Below, in pieces: positions 4,748 to 21,622 of a DNA stretch of 21,699 bases. This DNA is from a virus. Location: IMG/VR virus record IMGVR_UViG_3300025892_000187, positions 1-21,699 of that record, one strand, 5' to 3'. The stretch's first letter is position 1, and each line of letters opens with the position of its first letter. The notes beneath the pieces were generated by a model. That model saw nothing but the letters and a program-made list of their open reading frames with translations, was not told the origin of the DNA and searched no databases. Made by a program: the position numbers and the translations under genes.

Positions 4748-6883
4748 ATGGCCGAACAAATAGTATCACCGGGAGTATTTCAAAGAGAAACCGACCAGTC
4801 ATTTATAACACCTGCTCCCGTAGAAGTAGGTGCTGCAATCGTTGGTCCAACAGTAAAAGGACCCATTGAACAACCAACTGTAGTCACTTCATTTGCTGAC
4901 TACAAAGACAAATTTGGAACAACCTTTGTTTCTGGTTCTGATAATTTAGAATTTTTTACTTCTATTGCAGTACAAAAGTATTTTGCTAATGGAGGTAATA
5001 GCATGTTAGTTACTAGAGTAGTTTCAGGTTCTGGAACTGCATGGGACTATGCAACAAGTACGAACATAAGTTCAAATCAAGGGGCATCTTCAGGATTTGC
5101 TAGTGGCTCATTAGTATTTGTTAATAATTTCTTCCAAGACGAAGGAGATGAATTACAAGTAACTGTTGGCAGTACTGAATTTAGATTCATTGCTTCAGAC
5201 CCCAATGAAATTCCTGCAGATAACTCACCTTTATTCTTTGTTTCTACTGGTTCAAATAATGCAACATCAATTGATAACTTAGTATCTAAAATTGGTACTT
5301 CAAATGCATTAGGTGCTGGAATCACAGTTAATGATGGCACAACATTCTTAGGAATATCAGCTTCTAATGCGGGTACAGTTGGTAATTTAATTACTATAGA
5401 AACTGGTTCTGGTGGTAGCATTTCAACAGATGTATTAACCTTATCAGGTGGTACTGATGGTGCAGGAAATATAACATTTACTTTAAAAACTTTAGGTGAA
5501 GGTATTGTTCTTAATAACTCAACAGGTGCTACAGATGCTGGTGCTCAATATTCAGATGGATCATTACAATCAGGATCTAAAGATAACTTAAGATATGAAA
5601 TTAGTGGGGTAAACACCAATACAGGAACATTTAATGTTTCTATTAGAAGGGGTGATGATAACACTAACAACAAAATTATTTTAGAAACATTTATAGGATG
5701 TAGTTTAGACCCTAAATCAGATAACTATATAGCAAAAGTAATTGGTGATCAATACACTTCAGCAACTGAATATGAAGGCCAAACTGTTGTTAGAGTTAAC
5801 GGTGATTATCCAAATAGATCTAGATTTGTAAGAGTATCATCTGTAACTCTACAAACACCTGATTATTTGCGTGTAGATGGAGAAGTCGGATCCGACTCTA
5901 ATGGAGTATCTTACTCACAACGTTTACCAAATGTACAAAGTGGATCCTTCCACGGTGCTACTGGTACTAATATCCCTGCGAGTGAAGCATTATTAACTTT
6001 TGAAAATATTTCTCCTACTAATTCTCAAGGATTAGTAGCTAGTGATTACACAACAACTTTAAATATCCTTAAAAACGCAGACGAATACAGATTTGCTACT
6101 ATTACTATCCCTGGAATGTATGATCAGAACTATGCAAGTGCTGTAGCTTCATGTATTGAATTATGTGAAGGAAGAGGAGACACATTCTTTATTACAGATT
6201 TAGTAGCTTACAATGCTTCTATAAGTGATGTAACAACAGAATCAGGAACTTTAAATACTAATTTTGCTGGTACTTACTGGCCTTGGGTTCAAGTTCCATC
6301 TACTGAATTAAGTAGAAACGTTTGGGTTCCTGCTTCAACAGTAATGCAGGGTGTATATGCAGCAAATGACAGAATAGCAGCTCCATGGTTTGCACCAGCA
6401 GGCTTAAATAGAGGTGGATTACCTGTAGTAAGAACTGAATTTAAACTAACCCAAGCATTAAGAGATACTTTATATGATAATAGAGTAAACCCACTTGCAA
6501 CTTTCCCTAAAGTTGGACCTGTTGCTTATGGGCAAAAAACATTACAGAAAAAAGCAAGTGCTTTAGATCGTATTAATGTTAGAAGATTATTAATTTCCCT
6601 TAAAAACTTTATAGGTGACACTTCTAAAAATTTAGTATTTGAACAAAATACAACTGTAACAAGAAATAAATTCTTAAACGCAGTTAACCCATTTTTAGAA
6701 TCAGTACAGCAGAGACAAGGTTTATATGCCTTTAGAGTTGTTATGGATGAAACTAATAACACCGCTGAAGCAATTGATAGAAACCAATTAGTTGGTCAGA
6801 TATTTATCCAACCCACTAAAACTGCTGAATTTATAGTCTTAGACTACACTATCCAACCAACAGGTGCAACATTTAACGACTAA
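4748..6883 (+). CDS. Contractile tail sheath protein (T4 gp18 family)
   Basis: At 711 residues this is slightly longer than T4 gp18 (659). The N-terminus 'SPGVFQRETDQS' followed by 'VGAAIVGPTVKGP' and 'VVTSFADYKDKFG' is the characteristic opening of myovirus sheath subunits. The C-terminal ~90 residues (DRINVRRLLISLKN, NPFLESVQQRQGL, AIDRNQLVGQIFIQPTKTAEFIVLDYTI in segments) match the conserved sheath C-terminal domain that forms the inter-subunit mesh around the tube. The Gly/Ser/Thr-rich region at about 100-290 is probably the surface-exposed variable insertion. The product polymerises around the tail tube and contracts on infection. The leader contains AGAAG just before the ATG, and the gene is preceded by ATATTTATA. 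The tube gene follows after 40 nt. Confidence 0.93.
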   Translation: MAEQIVSPGVFQRETDQSFITPAPVEVGAAIVGPTVKGPIEQPTVVTSFADYKDKFGTTFVSGSDNLEFFTSIAVQKYFANGGNSMLVTRVVSGSGTAWDYATSTNISSNQGASSGFASGSLVFVNNFFQDEGDELQVTVGSTEFRFIASDPNEIPADNSPLFFVSTGSNNATSIDNLVSKIGTSNALGAGITVNDGTTFLGISASNAGTVGNLITIETGSGGSISTDVLTLSGGTDGAGNITFTLKTLGEGIVLNNSTGATDAGAQYSDGSLQSGSKDNLRYEISGVNTNTGTFNVSIRRGDDNTNNKIILETFIGCSLDPKSDNYIAKVIGDQYTSATEYEGQTVVRVNGDYPNRSRFVRVSSVTLQTPDYLRVDGEVGSDSNGVSYSQRLPNVQSGSFHGATGTNIPASEALLTFENISPTNSQGLVASDYTTTLNILKNADEYRFATITIPGMYDQNYASAVASCIELCEGRGDTFFITDLVAYNASISDVTTESGTLNTNFAGTYWPWVQVPSTELSRNVWVPASTVMQGVYAANDRIAAPWFAPAGLNRGGLPVVRTEFKLTQALRDTLYDNRVNPLATFPKVGPVAYGQKTLQKKASALDRINVRRLLISLKNFIGDTSKNLVFEQNTTVTRNKFLNAVNPFLESVQQRQGLYAFRVVMDETNNTAEAIDRNQLVGQIFIQPTKTAEFIVLDYTIQPTGATFND

Positions 6884-6898
6884 AAATTTAGCTTTAAT

Positions 6899-6907
6899 AT
6901 ATTTATA
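6899..6907 (+). promoter_or_regulatory. Candidate late promoter element ATATTTATA (tube gene)
   Basis: An exact ATATTTATA ends 16 nt before the tube ATG. It is followed by ACAAAACAA, the same 9 nt that follow the copy at 10377-10385. A separate promoter for the tube would let it be made in excess of the sheath. Role inferred. Confidence 0.55.
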
Positions 6908-6923
6908 ACAAAACAACACGACA

Positions 6924-7409
6924 ATGGCAATATTAAGTTCAGCAGATATGTTCTATACAGCTTACGAACCTAAGCTGCAAAATAGATTTATATTTTACAT
7001 CGATGGTATACCCGCTTATCTCATTAAAACCGCAGATAAACCAAAGTATACCGCAGAAGAAGTGGTTCTCGACCATATCAATGTAAAAAGAAAAGTAAAG
7101 GGTAAATCCGATTGGTCTCCAATTACTTGTACATTATACGATCCTGTAACACCTTCAGGAGCACAAGCAGTGATGGAATGGGTTCGTTTACATCACGAGT
7201 CAGTAACTGGTAGAGATGGATATTCTGATTTTTATAAAAAAGATATTAGATTTAATACTTTAGGACCTGTTGGTGATGTTGTTGAAGAATGGATCTGTAA
7301 GGGTGCTTATGTTACTAATGCAGAATTTGGATCAGGTGACTGGACTTCATCTACCCCAATGGAAATAAGCTTAACAATTGCTATGGATTATGCAATCTTA
7401 AATTACTAA
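6924..7409 (+). CDS. Tail tube protein (T4 gp19 family)
   Basis: The protein is 161 residues, almost the length of T4 gp19 (163). It shows the family pattern: an N-terminal 'YEPKLQNRFIFYIDGIPAYLIKTADKP' region (here in pieces), a central 'WSPITCTLYDPVTPSGAQAV' segment and a C-terminal beta segment ending in MDYAILNY. It forms the inner hexameric-ring tube, through which DNA passes, inside the sheath encoded just upstream. The leader is A/C-rich with no Shine-Dalgarno sequence. A strong intrinsic terminator follows 21 nt after the stop codon, so the sheath-tube unit ends here. Confidence 0.93.
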   Translation: MAILSSADMFYTAYEPKLQNRFIFYIDGIPAYLIKTADKPKYTAEEVVLDHINVKRKVKGKSDWSPITCTLYDPVTPSGAQAVMEWVRLHHESVTGRDGYSDFYKKDIRFNTLGPVGDVVEEWICKGAYVTNAEFGSGDWTSSTPMEISLTIAMDYAILNY

Positions 7410-7430: not shown

Positions 7431-7458
7431 AAGAGGTGCGCAAGCACCTCTTTTTTTT
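7431..7458 (+). terminator. Intrinsic (rho-independent) terminator after the tube gene
   Basis: A perfect 9-bp stem AAGAGGTGC / GCACCTCTT encloses a GCAA (GNRA-type) tetraloop. The eight consecutive T residues at 7451-7458 begin inside the 3' arm. It separates the sheath-tube transcription unit from the gp26-like gene, which has its own promoter-like element immediately after. Confidence 0.92.
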
Positions 7459-7482
7459 ACATATGTATATGCAAACATATAA
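7458..7482 (+). promoter_or_regulatory. Promoter/operator-like element, class 2, copy 2
   Basis: The element starts on the last T of the terminator run with the perfect palindrome TACATATGTA and ends in GCAAACATATAA. It is 36 nt before the ATG of the gp26-like gene and matches 22 of 25 positions of the element at 4332-4356. Its position just after a terminator strongly suggests a new transcription start. The protein or sigma factor that reads it is unknown. Confidence 0.58.
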
Positions 7483-7493
7483 TAAGTTATAAT

Positions 7494-8249
7494 ATGGAAG
7501 AAAATAAATCAATGTTTCCAACCGAGGAAGTAACATTACCCTCAAAAGGATTAATTTATCCCCAAGATAATCCATTAGCTAAAGGTACACTCGAAATGAA
7601 GTACATGACTGCTAAAGAAGAAGACATTTTAACTAATGAAAGTTATATTAAAAATGGTACTGTAATAGATAAGTTATTACAATCTTTAATTGTCACACCA
7701 ATTAATTATAATGATTTAGTAGTAGGTGATAAAAACGCAATTATGATCGCAGCTCGTGTTTTAGGTTATGGTAAAGATTACACCTTTACTTTAGGAGATG
7801 AAGAATTTACTGTAGACCTAACAGAAGTAGATGATAAAGAATTAAAAGAAGAACATTTATTAGAAAAAGGTAAAAATGAGTTTGAATTTACTCTTCCTAC
7901 TATCAATAAGTCTATTACTTTTAAAATTTTAACTCATGCTGATGAGAAAAAAATTGACACTGAAGTTAAAGGTCTTAAAAAAATTAATAAAAATAATTCT
8001 ACTGAATATAGTACTAGATTAAAACATATGATACTTTCTATAGAAGGTGATTATGAACGTAAAACTATTCGTCAGTTCGTAGATACTAATTTATTAGCTA
8101 GAGATGCAAGAGCTTTAAGGGAATACATCAAAGAAATCCAGCCTGATGTAAATTTAACCTTTGATCTTGAAAATGAAGCTGGAAGCGTAAAAGGAGACGT
8201 AAAGATCCCAATTGGGATCACGTTTTTTTGGCCTGACACCGAATTATAA
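7494..8249 (+). CDS. T4 gp26-type baseplate hub/tail assembly protein
   Basis: This 251-residue protein has the features of the T4 gp26 baseplate family: an N-terminal 'VTLPSKGLIYP' signature, 'LEMKYMTAKEEDILTN', a central region 'LLQSLIVTPINYNDLVVGDK', and an IPIGITFFWP C-terminus. In T4 this protein helps to build the baseplate hub. Here it lies between tube and tape measure, the place where tail-assembly chaperones are found in many other tailed phages. It has its own promoter-like element and follows a terminator, so it is probably expressed separately from the virion proteins. The start ATG has an A/T-only leader without a Shine-Dalgarno sequence. Near its end a run of seven T (8223-8229) could support a shift into the overlapping ORF. 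Confidence 0.78.
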   Translation: MEENKSMFPTEEVTLPSKGLIYPQDNPLAKGTLEMKYMTAKEEDILTNESYIKNGTVIDKLLQSLIVTPINYNDLVVGDKNAIMIAARVLGYGKDYTFTLGDEEFTVDLTEVDDKELKEEHLLEKGKNEFEFTLPTINKSITFKILTHADEKKIDTEVKGLKKINKNNSTEYSTRLKHMILSIEGDYERKTIRQFVDTNLLARDARALREYIKEIQPDVNLTFDLENEAGSVKGDVKIPIGITFFWPDTEL

Positions 8250-8478
8250 ATTTCAACTTTACGACGAAATCCATGATTTAGTATATTATGGAAATGGAGG
8301 CTTTTTGCATTCTGAAGTATATAATATGCCTATTCATATTAGAAGATTTCATATTAGAAAAATTAATGATCTTCATGAAAAACATAATGAAGAACACAAA
8401 AAAGCCTTACAAACCTCTAATCGCACAGCCCAAAATATCCCAAAAATGCCTAATATACCAAAAAACTTAAAATCTTAA
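8212..8478 (+). CDS. Overlapping ORF, probable frameshift extension of the gp26-like protein
   Basis: The ORF is open from a TTG at 8212 (88 residues) and overlaps the end of the gp26-like gene by 38 nt in the +1 frame. The protein is clearly non-random: 'YDEIHDLVYYGNGGFLHSEVY' (as pieces), 'NMPIHIRRFHIRKINDLHEKH', then a basic Asn/Pro-rich tail (NIPKMPNIPKNLKS). The aromatic GNGGF and MPIHIRRF parts look like the small proteins that follow gp26-like genes in some marine phages. No ATG lies near its start, and the only AGGAG upstream (8192-8196) is 15 nt from the TTG, so independent initiation looks poor. Reading through a shift at 8223-8229 would fuse residues 1-245 of the upstream protein to 82 residues from this ORF. 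This resembles lambda G/GT in position, though the required shift is +1 or -2. An unrecognised alternative start is the main competing explanation. Confidence 0.65.
   Translation: MGSRFFGLTPNYKFQLYDEIHDLVYYGNGGFLHSEVYNMPIHIRRFHIRKINDLHEKHNEEHKKALQTSNRTAQNIPKMPNIPKNLKS
8220..8231 (+). other. Candidate +1 ribosomal frameshift site at a T7 run
   Basis: In the frame of the gp26-like gene the codons are ACG TTT TTT TGG. A tRNA-Phe on the second TTT can move +1 and re-pair perfectly with TTT at 8227-8229, after which the ribosome reads GGC and continues for 82 codons. This would give a ~327-residue fusion. The downstream ORF is in the +1 (equivalently -2) frame, not -1. No stimulatory structure has been established. 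Frameshifting is inferred. Confidence 0.42.
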
Positions 8479-8505: not shown

Positions 8506-10377
8506 ATGGCTACAGATAATGTAAATGATCTTAATAATTCAGCAGAAAATATTAGAGAAGCTTTTGCTGAAATTAGTAATCTTGTTGATGAGTTAAATAA
8601 AAATTTAACTCAAACTGTTAATTTAACACAAAACGTTAATAATAATCTTTCACGCAGTACTGACCAAACTAAAGAACAGGTTAGAGAAGAAGCTACACGA
8701 GAAAGTATTCAAAAAAGAATGCAAAGTTTATCTAATGATGAACTAAAAGCTCTTAAAGAAGGGCTAAAAACAGGTAAAGGCCTTACTAAAGAATTAGCAG
8801 CTAAAGTAGGATTAGAAGGTAAAGCAGGAACATTAGCAGGAACTGCGGCTAAAATGAAAGCCCAATCATTAGGTTTAACAGAAAAACAAGTTAAACGGCA
8901 AATTTTGCTTAATGAAGCCCAAGCAGTTTCTAATAAATTACAAGGATTATCTAATAGAATATTAGATGAATTTGTTAAACAATTATTGGCTGCTGATAAA
9001 GAAACTACTCAAATAGCTAGAAACTTAAACTTATCTAAAGAAGAAGCTGTAGATTTAAAGCAAGAATTTGCTGTAGCTGCCCTACAATCAGGCGATATAG
9101 CAGTTAATTCAATTAGAATGGCTAAGGCTATGGGCACATTAAACGAACAGTTAGGAACAGCTGTTAGATTTAATGACGAAATGTTAATGACTACTTCTAA
9201 GTTAACAGATGTAGTTGGTTTATCCGCAGAAGCAGCAGGTAGTTTAGCATTTCAAGCCCAAATATCAGGTAATAGTTTAAGAGAAGTAGAAGAAAATGCT
9301 TTAGGAGCTTCATATGAATTACAACAAGGAGCAGGTATAGCTCTTAACATGAAAGGTATCCTTGAAGCCACAGGTAAAGTTTCAGGACAATTAAGAGCCC
9401 AATTAAATGGAAATCCTGAAATAATAGCTAAAGCCGTTACACAAGCTAAATTATTAGGAGCAGAAATAAATGATATAGCAAATGCTAGTAAACAATTATT
9501 AGATTTTGAAAATAGTATAGAAGCAGAATTAGAAGCAGAATTATTAACAGGCAAACAACTTAACCTTGAGCGTGCTAGGGCAGCAGCATTAGCTGGTGAT
9601 CAAGCTACAGTAGCTGAAGAGTTAGCCAAAAATATGGGTACATTTGGTGATTTTACTAAAATGAATACCTTACAGCAAGACGCTTTAGCCAAATCTATGG
9701 GTATGAGTTCAGATGCCTTATCAGATATGCTTTTTAAGCAAGAAACTATGGGTATGAATGCCGAACAGCTTAGAGCAGTTGGTAAAGGTGAGTTAGCAGA
9801 CAGGTTAGAACAATTAGATACCCAAGAAAGATTACAACTTGCCCAAGAAAAATTCCAAGCTACTTTAGGTGATATAGCAACAGCCTTTATACCCTTTATG
9901 GATATGGTTTCTGGAGTAGCAGCTGCATTTGCTTCAATGCCTGGGGTTATGGGGGCTTTATTAGGAATAATAGGAACATTAGTAGTAGCTCAAAAAGTAT
10001 TAGCAGCTATATCTATGGTAACTGCTGTAGCTAAAATATTTGGAGAAAATGCTAAAGCAGGGCCCATAGTAGGTACTATAGCAGCATTAGCAGGAGTTGC
10101 AGCATTATTTGGTGCTGTAGCCATGTCTAAACAAAAAGTTAGAGATGGTATAGCACCTGCAAGTAAAGGCCCATTTACAATCACTGACAATTATGGTGGA
10201 ATGGCAACAACTACCCCTGGTGATAATCTACAAGTTGGTCCTAAAGTAGGTGCTAAATCCTCTCCAACACCTATAGTAATCCAAAATAATTGGGATGCTT
10301 TTGCTGCATCAAATGGTAATGGTAGACGAGGATTAGGAGGAACCCAAGAAATGCAGGCAAGTCCTACATTTGCTTAA
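8506..10377 (+). CDS. Tail tape measure protein
   Basis: This 623-residue protein is mostly alpha-helical and rich in Ala, Leu, Gln and Glu, with an Asn/Gln-rich N-terminal coiled-coil region (about 1-70). A long helical body follows. A hydrophobic, Gly/Ala-rich stretch at about 456-545 (MPGVMGALLGIIGTLVVAQ, GTIAALAGVAALFGAVAMS) could include two or three membrane-inserting segments. The tail end is Gly/Pro-rich (IVIQNNWDAFAASNGNG). This architecture and its place right after the gp26-like gene are typical of tape measures. Its length is close to T4 gp29 (590 residues), which suggests a tail of roughly T4 size. It should span the tube lumen, set tail length and be ejected early in infection. 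No peptidase or lysozyme motif was seen. The leader lacks a Shine-Dalgarno sequence. Confidence 0.85.
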   Translation: MATDNVNDLNNSAENIREAFAEISNLVDELNKNLTQTVNLTQNVNNNLSRSTDQTKEQVREEATRESIQKRMQSLSNDELKALKEGLKTGKGLTKELAAKVGLEGKAGTLAGTAAKMKAQSLGLTEKQVKRQILLNEAQAVSNKLQGLSNRILDEFVKQLLAADKETTQIARNLNLSKEEAVDLKQEFAVAALQSGDIAVNSIRMAKAMGTLNEQLGTAVRFNDEMLMTTSKLTDVVGLSAEAAGSLAFQAQISGNSLREVEENALGASYELQQGAGIALNMKGILEATGKVSGQLRAQLNGNPEIIAKAVTQAKLLGAEINDIANASKQLLDFENSIEAELEAELLTGKQLNLERARAAALAGDQATVAEELAKNMGTFGDFTKMNTLQQDALAKSMGMSSDALSDMLFKQETMGMNAEQLRAVGKGELADRLEQLDTQERLQLAQEKFQATLGDIATAFIPFMDMVSGVAAAFASMPGVMGALLGIIGTLVVAQKVLAAISMVTAVAKIFGENAKAGPIVGTIAALAGVAALFGAVAMSKQKVRDGIAPASKGPFTITDNYGGMATTTPGDNLQVGPKVGAKSSPTPIVIQNNWDAFAASNGNGRRGLGGTQEMQASPTFA

Positions 10378-17904: not shown

Positions 17905-19230
17905 ATGTACTACCTTATAGAAACACAAGAGCAATTAGATAGGTTTTTTAAAGATGAGGGTAGCGAATGTTACCTTCAATTTATTACCAATAACGACGAA
18001 ACCCATCCTAAATTACAATCACTGTGTGCTTTGTACATTTATTCATTTAGTAAGGAAAAGGGATTCATTATTAATATAGATCATCCCGAGGCGTTTAAGC
18101 TCAGTTTACCATTAAAATATTTGAAATCTTATACGAATATATTCGTCAAAGAAAAAACCAAAGCTTTACTACACATTCCCACACTCCCTTATACGGATAT
18201 ACAATCCATATATTATTTAATAAAAAACGAACCGTTAGATTCATTACCTAAAACTGGCGCTCACACATATTTTGAGCGTAAATACGGCGCATATAATGCG
18301 AATAAAATCATTCCAATTGCAAAGCACCACGAGGCGTTGACACAAGAGTTTGATGCGTTATACCCGTATATAAACAACTTTAAGGAAGAAGAATCAAACA
18401 AGTGGTACAATGAAATTCTTACACCTACGTTAGCTAAAATGGTAAGTGAGGGATTTAAAATTAACCCCACATTTAAAAAACACTTTGACATCAATGAAAA
18501 GTTTAGCATTAACGAAGATAAGGCTTATGGATGGTACAATTTTTGCACTACAACAGGACGCCCTACAAACAACTTTAATAGCATTAATTTCTCAGCTCTA
18601 AAACACGATAGTGGAGAGCGAGATAGTTTTGAAGCCGACAACGATACATTAATTGAAATGGATTACGAGGGGTATCACCCCCGTATTATAGCACGTTTTG
18701 TAGGACACCATATTGATAAAAGTGAGTCTGTACATAAACAACTAGCTCAAATGTATTTTGAAACAGCTGAGATTAGTGATGAAATGTATAAAAAGAGTAA
18801 AGAATTAACGTTCCAACAAATGTATGGAGGCATAAATAAAAAATACCTTAAACACGAGTACTTTAATAAAACACAAAAGTTTATAGACTCATTGTGGCAC
18901 GAATTTAATACTAATGGATACGTTAAAACTGTAATTGCGAGGCGTAAGCTTTTAAAGGGTAATTATAAGAATATAACGCCACAAAAATTATTTAACTATT
19001 ATATCCAGGCATTCGAAACTGAATACAATATTACTTTGTTATCGCGAGTATTTAAGCTTTTAGAAGGTAAACAAACAAAAATGGTGTTATATGTGTATGA
19101 CTCCATGCTATTCGATTTTTCGTTGGAGGATGGTAAGGAACTCCTTCAATCCCTTAGAGACATAATTTCATCAGATTTTCCCGTAAAGTTAAAGAAAGGA
19201 TATACGTACGCTTCCCTTGAGGCCTTTTGA
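17905..19230 (+). CDS. Divergent family A DNA polymerase-like protein
   Basis: In this 441-residue protein the polymerase motifs of family A are recognisable. They are: TTTGRP at 215-220; motif A 'EMDYEGYHPR' with D253; motif B 'KELTFQQMYGG' with K299, F303 and Y307 in the Pol I spacing; 'TVIARRKLL' at 342-350; 'LFNYYIQAFETE' with N364 and Q368; and motif C 'LYVYDSMLFDF' with D399. Both metal-binding Asp residues are present. Unusual changes are His258 at the steric-gate Glu position (Pol I E710), and Tyr398 and Ser400 flanking the motif C Asp, where His and Glu are usual. The N-terminal ~150 residues follow the outline of the 3'-5' exonuclease domain, but its D-x-E, N-x3-D and Y-x3-D motifs are not visible. 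'LTPTLAKMVSEGFKIN' marks the domain junction, and only ~28 residues then separate it from TTTGRP, so most of the thumb is missing. It may be the replicative enzyme, a subunit of a split polymerase, or a repair polymerase. An AAGG lies four bases before the ATG. Confidence 0.8.
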   Translation: MYYLIETQEQLDRFFKDEGSECYLQFITNNDETHPKLQSLCALYIYSFSKEKGFIINIDHPEAFKLSLPLKYLKSYTNIFVKEKTKALLHIPTLPYTDIQSIYYLIKNEPLDSLPKTGAHTYFERKYGAYNANKIIPIAKHHEALTQEFDALYPYINNFKEEESNKWYNEILTPTLAKMVSEGFKINPTFKKHFDINEKFSINEDKAYGWYNFCTTTGRPTNNFNSINFSALKHDSGERDSFEADNDTLIEMDYEGYHPRIIARFVGHHIDKSESVHKQLAQMYFETAEISDEMYKKSKELTFQQMYGGINKKYLKHEYFNKTQKFIDSLWHEFNTNGYVKTVIARRKLLKGNYKNITPQKLFNYYIQAFETEYNITLLSRVFKLLEGKQTKMVLYVYDSMLFDFSLEDGKELLQSLRDIISSDFPVKLKKGYTYASLEAF

Positions 19231-19238
19231 TATTTATT
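19230..19238 (+). promoter_or_regulatory. Weak match to the ATATTTATA element
   Basis: ATATTTATT begins on the last base of the polymerase stop codon and ends 25 nt before the ATG at 19264. It differs at the last position from the five exact copies, so it may be a weaker promoter or a chance match. Confidence 0.3.
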
Positions 19239-19263
19239 GCCACAACAATGCAATAAACATAAC

Positions 19264-19653
19264 ATGAATAATAAACTTTACTGTACTTTTCTTCAAGGGG
19301 AAACAGTAGAGGAAGTTGTAGGCACAATATTAGAGGAACACGATATTTTATTTAACAAAATTTTTGTTTTAATTTCACCAGAGGAGGATAAAACCATGTT
19401 AACTTACAATATAGATGGACCTGTATATAACCTACAGATTCCTAATACTATCTTAGTACACAGAAAAAAACAAACTAACACTTTGTATACGATTAATGCT
19501 TTAAATGAAGTAATTCGTTATATGAATAATGATGAATTAGATACCTCATACCAAGTTGATTGGACAAAATTTAGAAATTGTCTTCTCCTAACGCGTCCTG
19601 GGGGATTTAAAAAGGTTAAAACCCGCCTTAAGAAAATTATTGAAGTAGATTAA
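19264..19653 (+). CDS. Hypothetical protein in the replication module (129 residues)
   Basis: The ATG at 19264 is preferred to the in-frame TTG at 19237, which overlaps the promoter-like motif. The product is a small soluble alpha/beta-type protein with 'GETVEEVVGTILEEHDILFNK' (in pieces), 'IFVLISPEEDKTMLTYNI', 'TLYTINALNEVIRYM' and a basic C-terminus (RPGGFKKVKTRLKKIIEVD). The strongly basic end could contact nucleic acid or the gp32 acidic tail. I recognise no family. Its position between a DNA polymerase and the single-strand DNA-binding protein suggests a replication accessory or regulator, but no motif proves this. The leader shows no Shine-Dalgarno sequence. Confidence 0.65.
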   Translation: MNNKLYCTFLQGETVEEVVGTILEEHDILFNKIFVLISPEEDKTMLTYNIDGPVYNLQIPNTILVHRKKQTNTLYTINALNEVIRYMNNDELDTSYQVDWTKFRNCLLLTRPGGFKKVKTRLKKIIEVD

Positions 19654-19719
19654 AAAGCCTTTTGGTAATATTTGGATTCCGTGGCCTGGGTTATTATATT
19701 TACCCAAAATTAAAAGGTC
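19654..19719 (+). promoter_or_regulatory. gp32 leader with possible RBS-sequestering structure
   Basis: The 66-nt leader contains the ribosome-binding sequence AAAAGG (19712-19717). CCTTTT at 19658-19663 is its exact complement. The overlapping TTTTGGTAA (19660-19668) can instead pair with TTACCCAAAA (19700-19709) with one bulged C. A third option is TGGGT/ACCCA (19687-19691 with 19702-19706). These mutually exclusive pairings could form a switch or pseudoknot. T4 gene 32 is known to be autoregulated through its leader, so a similar role is plausible. An ATATTTA at 19696-19702 is a partial promoter match. Confidence 0.35.
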
Positions 19720-20472
19720 ATGAATCTAGACGAAATCAGAAAGCGAATGGACCGCTTGCAAAATAAGTCCAATGGAAAATCAGGTGGTGAATTCAGAAAG
19801 AACTTTTGGAAACCACCAAGTGGAGAAAAATCAGTAGTACGTATTGTACCATATAAGCACAATAAAGATGTGCCCTTCACTGAATTATATTTTTACTTCG
19901 GTATTGGTAAACCCCGAATGATGTCACTCTCAAATTTTGATGAGTCAGACCCAATTTTGGAATTTGCTTCTCAACTCCGTAAGTCAAATGAACCAGATAA
20001 TGTAGAGTTAGCTAAGAAACTCTATCCTAAAATGCGTATTTTCGCCCCTGTACTTGTACGTGGTGAGGAAGATAAGGGCGTTCGATTCTGGGAATTTGGT
20101 AAAATGGTATACACTGAACTTTTAGGTGTTATGATGGATGAAGATTATGGTGATATTACCGACATTGCAGCAGGTAGAGACATTACAGTTGAAGTAATTC
20201 CGGCAGCTGAGACAGGTAAAATGTTTGACACAACAACAGTTCGTGTTAAGCCAGTACAATCACCACTTTCAACAGATGGTAGCGCAGCTGAAGGATACCT
20301 TGATGATCAAAAAGATATTAAGGAACTCTTTACTAAGTTTTCATTTGATGAAATGAAAGATTCACTCCAAAAATATTTGGCACCAAGTGAAGAAAATGAA
20401 ACCGTTGAAGTAACCCCACCTGCAAAGGATAAGGTTGACATTAATTCTAAAATAGACGATTTATTCGGTTAA
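19720..20472 (+). CDS. 32: Single-stranded DNA-binding protein, gp32-like
   Basis: This 250-residue protein (T4 gp32 has 301) shows the gp32 plan. A basic N-terminal helix (LDEIRKRMDRLQNK) for cooperative self-association is followed by 'FWKPPSGEKSVVRIVPYKHN' and an OB-fold core with 'FYFGIGKPRMM'. 'FWEFGKMVYTELLGVMMDEDYG' (in pieces) and 'GRDITVEVIP' come next, then an acidic linker and a final 'INSKIDDLFG', a short acidic tip of the kind used to recruit replication proteins. Unlike T4 gp32, which holds zinc through His and three Cys, this protein has no cysteine at all, so the zinc site is absent. It should coat single-stranded DNA in replication and recombination and cooperate with the recombinase encoded one base downstream. 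It has one of the clearest Shine-Dalgarno sequences in the window (AAAAGG). Confidence 0.85.
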   Translation: MNLDEIRKRMDRLQNKSNGKSGGEFRKNFWKPPSGEKSVVRIVPYKHNKDVPFTELYFYFGIGKPRMMSLSNFDESDPILEFASQLRKSNEPDNVELAKKLYPKMRIFAPVLVRGEEDKGVRFWEFGKMVYTELLGVMMDEDYGDITDIAAGRDITVEVIPAAETGKMFDTTTVRVKPVQSPLSTDGSAAEGYLDDQKDIKELFTKFSFDEMKDSLQKYLAPSEENETVEVTPPAKDKVDINSKIDDLFG

Positions 20473-20473
20473 T

Positions 20474-21622
20474 ATGGCAAAGAAAAAATCCAACAATAAA
20501 ACCCCAGAAGGGGGAAGTCTCACTGAAGAATTAGCAGTATCGCTAAATAAAAAATTCAGTAAAGAATACAACCAAGTTGCCTACTTTCTCAATGGAGGGG
20601 ATGAATCGCCAACAGATGTAAAGTCGTGGGTATCTACAGGATGCACACCACTAGACCTAGCGATTGCTAATAGACCAAACGGGGGTTTGCCTGTTAGTAA
20701 AATTGTTGAGATTACGGGCCTAGAGCAAAGCGGTAAATCCCTCCTTGCAGCCCACGTTATAGCTTCTACTCAAAAACAAGATGGAGTAGCAATTTATATT
20801 GACACTGAATCTGCACTTGACGCTCAGTTTTTAACCGCCATTGGCGTTGATGTTGATAAAATGCTTTATATACCCCTTAATACAATTGAGGACGTATTTG
20901 AAGCAATGGAAGACATTATCGTAAAAATTCGCGAAAAACAAAAAGACAGATTAGTCACAATTGTTGTTGACAGTGTTGCTGCTGCTACTACTAAAATTGA
21001 GTCAGCTGCTGACTATGATAAAGATGGATACGCTACTGCGAAAGCCATTATTATGTCAAAGTCAATGCGTAAGATTACTAATTTAATTGGTAAACAAAAC
21101 ATCCTGTGTGTATTTACAAATCAGTTACGACAGAAACTAAACGCTATGCCGTTTGGTGATCAATACACAACATCAGGAGGTAAAGCGCTTCAATTCCATG
21201 CATCTGTTCGCTTGCGACTCAAAGGAGTAGGCAAGATTAAAGAAAAGCTTAATGGAGTTGACACAGTAGTTGGTCAAGAAGTTGAATGTGAAGTTGTAAA
21301 AAACCGCCTAGGCCCCCCTAACCGAAAAGTCCGTTATAGCGTATTTTACGATTCTGGAATTGATGATGTTTTTGGTACTTTAAAGTTACTTAAAGAATAT
21401 GGAGTTGTAAAACAAGGTGGAGCATGGTATAAGTATACTACTGCTGATGGTGAAACACACCAATTTTTAGCTAAAGAGTTTGGTGATTTATTAGAAAGTC
21501 ATCCAACAGCTAAAGAAGAATTATATAAAGCCCTTTGTGACAATTATATTATGAAGTATCGTCACGAGAAAGAAGAAGGTCTAGATCGTGATCCTGACGA
21601 AACAATAGTAGAGAATGAGTAA
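20474..21622 (+). CDS. uvsX: RecA/UvsX-type strand exchange recombinase
   Basis: This 382-residue protein (T4 UvsX has 391) contains Walker A 'GLEQSGKS' (G82-K88-S89), a catalytic Glu in 'YIDTES' (E112), Walker B 'VTIVVDS' (D166), and a DNA-binding loop region 'FTNQLRQKLNAMPFG' followed by 'TTSGGKALQFHASVRLRLK'. The loop 2 region and the following 'VVKNRLGPPNRKVRY' and 'GGAWYKY' look closer to cellular RecA than to T4 UvsX, while the size and the gp32 neighbour fit the phage role. It should form filaments on gp32-coated single-stranded DNA and drive strand exchange and recombination-dependent replication. The gene begins one base after the gp32 stop, without its own ribosome-binding site, so it is probably translationally coupled. 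The C-terminus is acidic (DRDPDETIVENE). The symbol marks function. By sequence, recA would fit as well. Confidence 0.9.
   Translation: MAKKKSNNKTPEGGSLTEELAVSLNKKFSKEYNQVAYFLNGGDESPTDVKSWVSTGCTPLDLAIANRPNGGLPVSKIVEITGLEQSGKSLLAAHVIASTQKQDGVAIYIDTESALDAQFLTAIGVDVDKMLYIPLNTIEDVFEAMEDIIVKIREKQKDRLVTIVVDSVAAATTKIESAADYDKDGYATAKAIIMSKSMRKITNLIGKQNILCVFTNQLRQKLNAMPFGDQYTTSGGKALQFHASVRLRLKGVGKIKEKLNGVDTVVGQEVECEVVKNRLGPPNRKVRYSVFYDSGIDDVFGTLKLLKEYGVVKQGGAWYKYTTADGETHQFLAKEFGDLLESHPTAKEELYKALCDNYIMKYRHEKEEGLDRDPDETIVENE

Follow-up and report, generated by a model that had tools for sequence, protein, structure and literature searches.

A putative +1 programmed ribosomal frameshift in the tail-assembly chaperone gene of a marine T4-like virus and its relatives

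Results and Discussion

The 21,699-nucleotide stretch of DNA analyzed here (hereafter called the window; IMG/VR record IMGVR_UViG_3300025892_000187, positions 1 to 21,699) originates from a marine T4-like virus of bacteria. A gp26-like gene within it very probably encodes a tail-assembly chaperone pair, consisting of a short form G (251 aa) and a long form GT (327 aa), with the latter being generated by +1 programmed ribosomal frameshifting close to the 3′-end of G. The features of the locus are compiled in Table 1. As stated in a preliminary description made from the sequence alone, G is located between the tail tube gene and the tape-measure gene, with the latter assigned by its position and by the annotated counterpart in Flavobacterium phage immuto, and the T ORF directly precedes the tape-measure gene. 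Family searches with the probable tape-measure ORF yielded no convincing direct match.

Table 1. Features of the chaperone locus and its neighborhood (positions in the window).
Feature	Position	Strand	Basis
Tail sheath protein	4748..6883	+	PF17482, E 7e-12
Tail tube protein	6924..7409	+	phrog_4542 tail tube, E 5e-26
G, putative short tail-assembly chaperone, gp26-like ORF of 251 aa, zero frame	7494..8249	+	phrog_150, tblastn, AF2
Candidate shift site TTT TTT TGG CCT	8223..8234	+	conserved in 162/162 loci; codons invariant, 83 representatives
T, +1-frame extension, 82 aa + stop, expected only as fusion to G	8230..8478	+	dN/dS, conservation, profile match
Zero-frame stop TAA, terminates unshifted product	8247..8249	+	sequence
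Probable tape-measure protein of 623 aa, presumably served by G/GT	8506..10377	+	position; immuto counterpart annotated tape measure

Genes for a DNA polymerase A-like, a gp32-like ssDNA-binding and a RecA-like protein are found closely behind the tail genes (17905-21622), which supports the assignment to a T4-related phage. In addition, a hairpin followed by a T run (AGAGGTGCGCAAGCACCTCTTTTTTTT, 7434-7460) is present 3′ of the tail tube gene and is reminiscent of an intrinsic terminator located between the tube gene and G.

The proposed shift site and mechanism

Divided into the codons of the gp26-like ORF, positions 8220-8249 are ACG TTT TTT TGG CCT GAC ACC GAA TTA TAA. The sequence TTT TTT TGG, with which the gene had initially been thought to end, is therefore present, but it is followed by five further codons and the stop codon. 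The run described there as consisting of seven T indeed comprises exactly seven (8223-8229). The +1 frame can be read without interruption from 8203 up to the stop codon at 8476-8478 (last coding base 8475), with the coding part after the shift (8230-8475) accounting for 82 residues. If base 8229 is skipped, the next codon is GGC at 8230, and 245 residues of G would be joined to 82 residues of T, resulting in a predicted product of 327 aa with the junction ITFF-GLTP. Both the forms of 251 and approximately 327 residues and the junction sequence proposed in the preliminary description are thereby reproduced as predicted products.

According to the mechanism that we propose, the majority of ribosomes would read G through to the stop codon ending at 8249. 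A fraction would pause with UGG as the A-site codon, presumably owing to its slow decoding, while the P site holds tRNA-Phe on YUU (tRNA-Leu at loci with CUU). The P-site tRNA would then move one base forward and re-pair on UUU, base 8229 would be skipped and translation would resume at GGC CUG ACN, giving rise to the GT fusion. By analogy with G and GT of phage lambda, many copies of G together with fewer copies of GT may coat the tape-measure protein, with the T domain bringing in tail-tube subunits and both chaperone forms being gone before the virion is completed.

A stimulatory RNA structure was found neither upstream nor downstream of the site (mean z about -0.5), and no Shine-Dalgarno-like element conserved at a fixed spacing upstream of the site could be detected. 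The combination of an A-site stop codon and a nearby upstream Shine-Dalgarno sequence that defines RF2-type sites is likewise absent, with the A-site codon being UGG, UAC or UUC and never a stop codon.

Conservation of site and reading-frame arrangement

Scanning IMG/VR with G yielded 80 relatives; 79 of these extend to the gene end, and each of the 79 contains TTTYTTTGGCCTGAC together with a continuing +1 frame. Apart from three loci ending at the contig edge, the open +1 stretches in these 79 relatives have a length of 73-111 codons. The +1 relation is also kept in the isolates Flavobacterium phage immuto (TTT CTT TGG CCT GAC) and Microcystis phage Mel-JY01 (TTT TTT TGG CCT AAG). A second scan with Mel-JY01 as seed added 80 loci with identities down to 44%, the sites of which read TTT-YTT-TGG-CCT, CTT-TTT-TGG-CCT, TTT-TTT-TAC-CCT or TTT-TTT-TTC-CCT. 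The +1 frame was the longest one in 79 of them; in the remaining locus (L245) the -1 frame is seemingly longer, and a clear +1 T domain is present there as well.

Taken together, the pattern YTT-YTT-T(GG/AC/TC)-CCT occurs at the same place and with an open +1 frame in all 162 sequences reaching the site. On the plus strand of 923,507 nt (0.92 Mb), YTTYTTT(GGCCT/ACCCT/TCCCT) is found 162 times, in each case at the G/T junction, a count which describes the rarity of the pattern elsewhere and does not represent an independent test, since the pattern was drawn up after inspection of the loci. The zero-frame stop codon of the relatives ends 11-26 nt past the shift point. The -1 frame closes ahead of the gp26 stop codon, and an in-frame heptamer of the type X XXY YYZ with a second ORF in the -1 frame was not found. 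More distantly related Firmicute phages (SP-15, GXN1, and LIS04) and the 484-kb phage LR756508 also show the +1 relation, at related sites with UUU followed by C or U; the Firmicute sites read TTT TTT CAC and TTC TTT CGT and represent natural +1 UUU-to-UUC sites. The preliminary description had suggested an alignment of related phages as a check, and in every testable locus (162/162) slippery site, frame relation and overlap turned out to be conserved. A second ORF forming a separate, non-overlapping gene with its own ATG, which had been named there as speaking against frameshifting, was looked for in the close relatives and observed in none.

Codon constraint and selection

For the codon analysis, 83 representatives with less than 90% identity were used. 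At the site, Phe, Phe, and Pro were each encoded by a single codon (TTT, TTT, and CCT) in 100% of cases, without any synonymous variation, whereas no other scored column exceeded 0.91 (n = 83); away from the site, Pro is encoded by CCT in only 37% of cases. Eight of the 83 representatives read TTT CTT TGG at the site. As the invariant CCT supplies the Leu codon (CTN) of the +1 frame, both frames are constrained at this position. Past the overlap, T shows a dN/dS of 0.13 in the +1 frame in comparison to 1.3 and 1.7 in the other two frames. Purifying selection is therefore restricted to the +1 frame, which bears out the earlier impression that the +1 ORF encodes a non-random protein. The T protein is conserved from its very first post-slip residue onward (GLTPxYK).

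Alternative explanations

Among the alternatives, a -2 frameshift as known from Mu, which would lead into the same frame with one extra Phe, appears improbable. The seven-T run of most members would permit -2 re-pairing of tRNA-Phe; however, in the eight representatives with TTT CTT TGG, tRNA-Leu would land on UUC after a -2 slip, while a +1 slip places it on UUU. At the RF2 site, tRNA-Leu likewise moves from CUU to UUU. The Firmicute sites described above, as natural +1 UUU-to-UUC sites, argue against a -2 slip as well.

We regard it as slightly less probable still that T is a separate small protein, synthesized from its own start codon or by coupling to the termination of G. Possible +1-frame starts in the window are TTG at 8212 (inside gp26), TTG at 8305, and ATG at 8326 and 8446. 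The first of these is preceded by AAGGAG, and in the Ackermannviridae-type phages VP-1 and K474 a T-like ORF does start at an ATG overlapping or adjoining the G stop codon. The AAGGAG is, however, located 15 nt upstream of TTG 8212, a spacing too long for a usual ribosome-binding site, and 58 of the 83 representatives do not possess any ATG able to start T, with 33 lacking ATG, GTG, and TTG ahead of the conserved part. This is in accordance with the initial view that the +1 ORF has no convincing start of its own. A Met at codon 32 of T is conserved in 136 of 162 loci, but initiation there would lead to the loss of about half of the domain. Independent initiation is thereby excluded as the general mechanism; moreover, it would leave the invariant codons of the site unexplained.

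Transcriptional slippage on the T run, by which a share of the mRNAs would be one base shorter, seems very improbable. RNA polymerase slippage is possible on long U runs and such a run is present at the site, but members with TTTCTTT or CTTTTTT, which lack a seven-base run, retain the frame relation.

A homopolymer sequencing or assembly indel or a decayed gene can practically be dismissed: seven-T runs are prone to errors and the IME-SM1 record seemingly contains one, but the same frame break is found in 162 contigs and isolates, some with TTTCTTT and no run, and this conservation across independent sequences, together with the purifying selection on the +1 ORF, refutes such an origin and excludes a repeated sequencing error.

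Homology and predicted fold of G and T

Homology of G and T to the T4-type tail-chaperone pair gp26/gp51 is supported by profile comparisons. G matches phrog_150 ("baseplate hub") over residues 4-246 (E 8e-10), and tblastn searches with G matched immuto, Mel-JY01, and SP-15. T4 gp26 and gp51 both match phrog_150 as well as PF12322 (Pfam T4_baseplate); gp51 reaches beyond PF12322 and is the only one of the two with an extra C-terminal domain, phrog_634. For the window G no match to PF12322 was obtained even at E 1, whereas its relative SP-15 matches at 1.5e-28. As direct profile comparison of the window G with single T4 proteins yielded no signal, the link between G and T4 rests on phrog_150 and on the intermediate relatives.

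The window T matches a profile of cyanophage T/gp51 at E 4e-6 (hhalign). Cyanophage gp51 in turn matches phrog_634 and the C-terminus of T4 gp51 (E 4e-5); the window T alone gave no direct match to phrog_634. With both halves matching the T4-type pair (G via phrog_150, T via the cyanophage gp51 profile), sequence comparison argues for the G/GT-like interpretation put forward at the outset. A weak match of T to DUF6760 was also obtained; a search for relatives in bacterial genomes and plasmids, performed as a test for contractile injection systems carrying this domain, yielded no match.

The AF2 model of G reached a pLDDT of 88. Its top two VIA-align matches, YqbN (3klu, Z 5.4) and the HK97 tail-assembly chaperone (2ob9, Z 4.7), cover residues 1-94 at modest Z of about 5, and Foldseek returned no significant PDB match for the model. 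T is predicted to form two main helices joined by a GGF...MP turn, and a fold search with the T domain alone gave no significant match.

Comparison with known frameshifting systems

Tail-assembly chaperones of the lambda G/GT type, which are produced by programmed frameshifting (Xu, Hendrix and Duda 2004), have been reviewed in PMC5009743. The window locus resembles them in its position between tube and tape measure, in the common N-terminus of both forms, in the overlapping second ORF and in a predicted shift near the 3′-end of G, and the top fold matches of G, at modest Z, are to members of the chaperone family. In contrast to lambda-type loci, the shift would be +1 and not -1, the site is YUU-U(GG)-CCU instead of a heptamer, and G belongs to the T4 gp26/gp51 family. 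The same review mentions a +1 shift in Listeria phage PSA and considers the tail chaperone of the haloarchaeal myovirus HSTV-2 to be very likely expressed by +1 shifting.

Well-known +1 sites are CUU UGA C of RF2 and CUU AGG C of Ty1. As at these sites, YUU in the P site would re-pair one base forward, and the +1 codon GGC is identical to that of Ty1. Differences to RF2- and Ty1-type sites are the A site without a stop codon as well as a pseudoknot and an upstream Shine-Dalgarno sequence not being detected.

For T4-like phages, the citing passages of PMC10885494 and PMC12846349 attribute the identification of gp26 and gp51 as tail-assembly chaperones to Vladimirov, Gautam and Davidson (2022). 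In its citation of this work, the PRFect paper (PMC10885494) refers to T4-like phages in which a short gene is accompanied by a longer, fused one, and the citation in PMC12846349 concerns poly-T -1 signals in T4-like chaperone genes. The preliminary description had set frameshifting in T4-type tails apart from the textbook view, a remark that is therefore partly outdated, as far as these citations of the 2022 identification go. What is thus already known comprises frameshifting in chaperone genes as well as, for T4-like phages, the chaperones themselves and -1 sites of the poly-T type. No report of a +1 form or of a YUU-UGG-CCU site in T4-type tails was found in the open-access literature, which is weak evidence of absence, and T4-type tails with a +1 site of this kind appear not to have been described before.

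The chaperone pair in other lineages

Cyanophages (Kyanoviridae) were found to contain an in-frame -1 heptamer, T TTT TTC, in gp26-gp51 in 80 of 80 loci, with the stop codon ending 13 nt further on. The two Phe codons of this heptamer are the only 100% columns among 35 representatives, and in nine of the 35 gp51 does not possess a start codon. The 57-aa gp51 of S-PM2 corresponds to the phrog_634 domain and follows T TTT TTC in the -1 frame. The cyanophage pair thus shares both domains, the fusion point after Phe-Phe and overlapping frames with the window, but uses a -1 heptamer instead of a +1 site. A -1 heptamer (TTTTTTC, TTTTTTT, or TTTTTTG) also occurs in Atu_ph07, PA5oct, pf16, P19, ACP17, VH7D, OLIVR6, and RHph_I1_9. 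In a tree of G, most +1 lineages are found apart from the -1 lineages, with Atu_ph07 and PA5oct being unplaced.

In three Ackermannviridae-type loci (L179, L182, and L184) the start of the T-like ORF is found at the G stop codon or close to it (TAATG in VP-1 and K474) and no clear -1 heptamer is present; this arrangement is a separate-gene version of the G/T pair. T4 itself encodes the short and the long form as separate genes without any frameshift: gp26 (5803-6429) and gp51 (6480-7229) are paralogs of one family, of which only gp51 contains a T-like C-terminal domain. While G of the window is homologous to both proteins and T corresponds to the C-terminal extension of gp51 (phrog_634), T4 differs from the window in that its two forms are paralogous genes.

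The record of IME-SM1 (KR560069) reads GAT TTT TCG within positions 2214-2240, one T fewer than its close relative Bhz51 (OR797040), which reads GAT TTT TTC at about 1297-1332. The apparent C-terminal extension of gp26 in IME-SM1 is probably due to a sequencing error or a natural indel.

Evenly balanced, in our view, is the broader proposal that YUU_UGG_CCU represents a new phage class of sense-codon +1 sites, operating without stop codon, pseudoknot or Shine-Dalgarno sequence across a large T4-like clade, and that lineages differ in how they reach the fusion (a shift of +1 or of -1, a separate ORF next to G, or a duplicated gene), so that selection would be directed at the production of two forms, whatever the mechanism. 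One phage protein pair thus appears to be maintained in two forms by several genetic routes. The +1 loci could furthermore serve as a natural series for studying +1 shifts on sense codons that take place with neither a stop codon nor any detectable RNA structure.

The +1 reading also has consequences for existing annotations. At the position of T, the deposited annotation of immuto contains a 36-aa ORF, that of SP-15 a 39-aa ORF and that of LIS04 nothing. The predicted long form is accordingly split, truncated or missing in these records, an annotation that is corrected by the present analysis.
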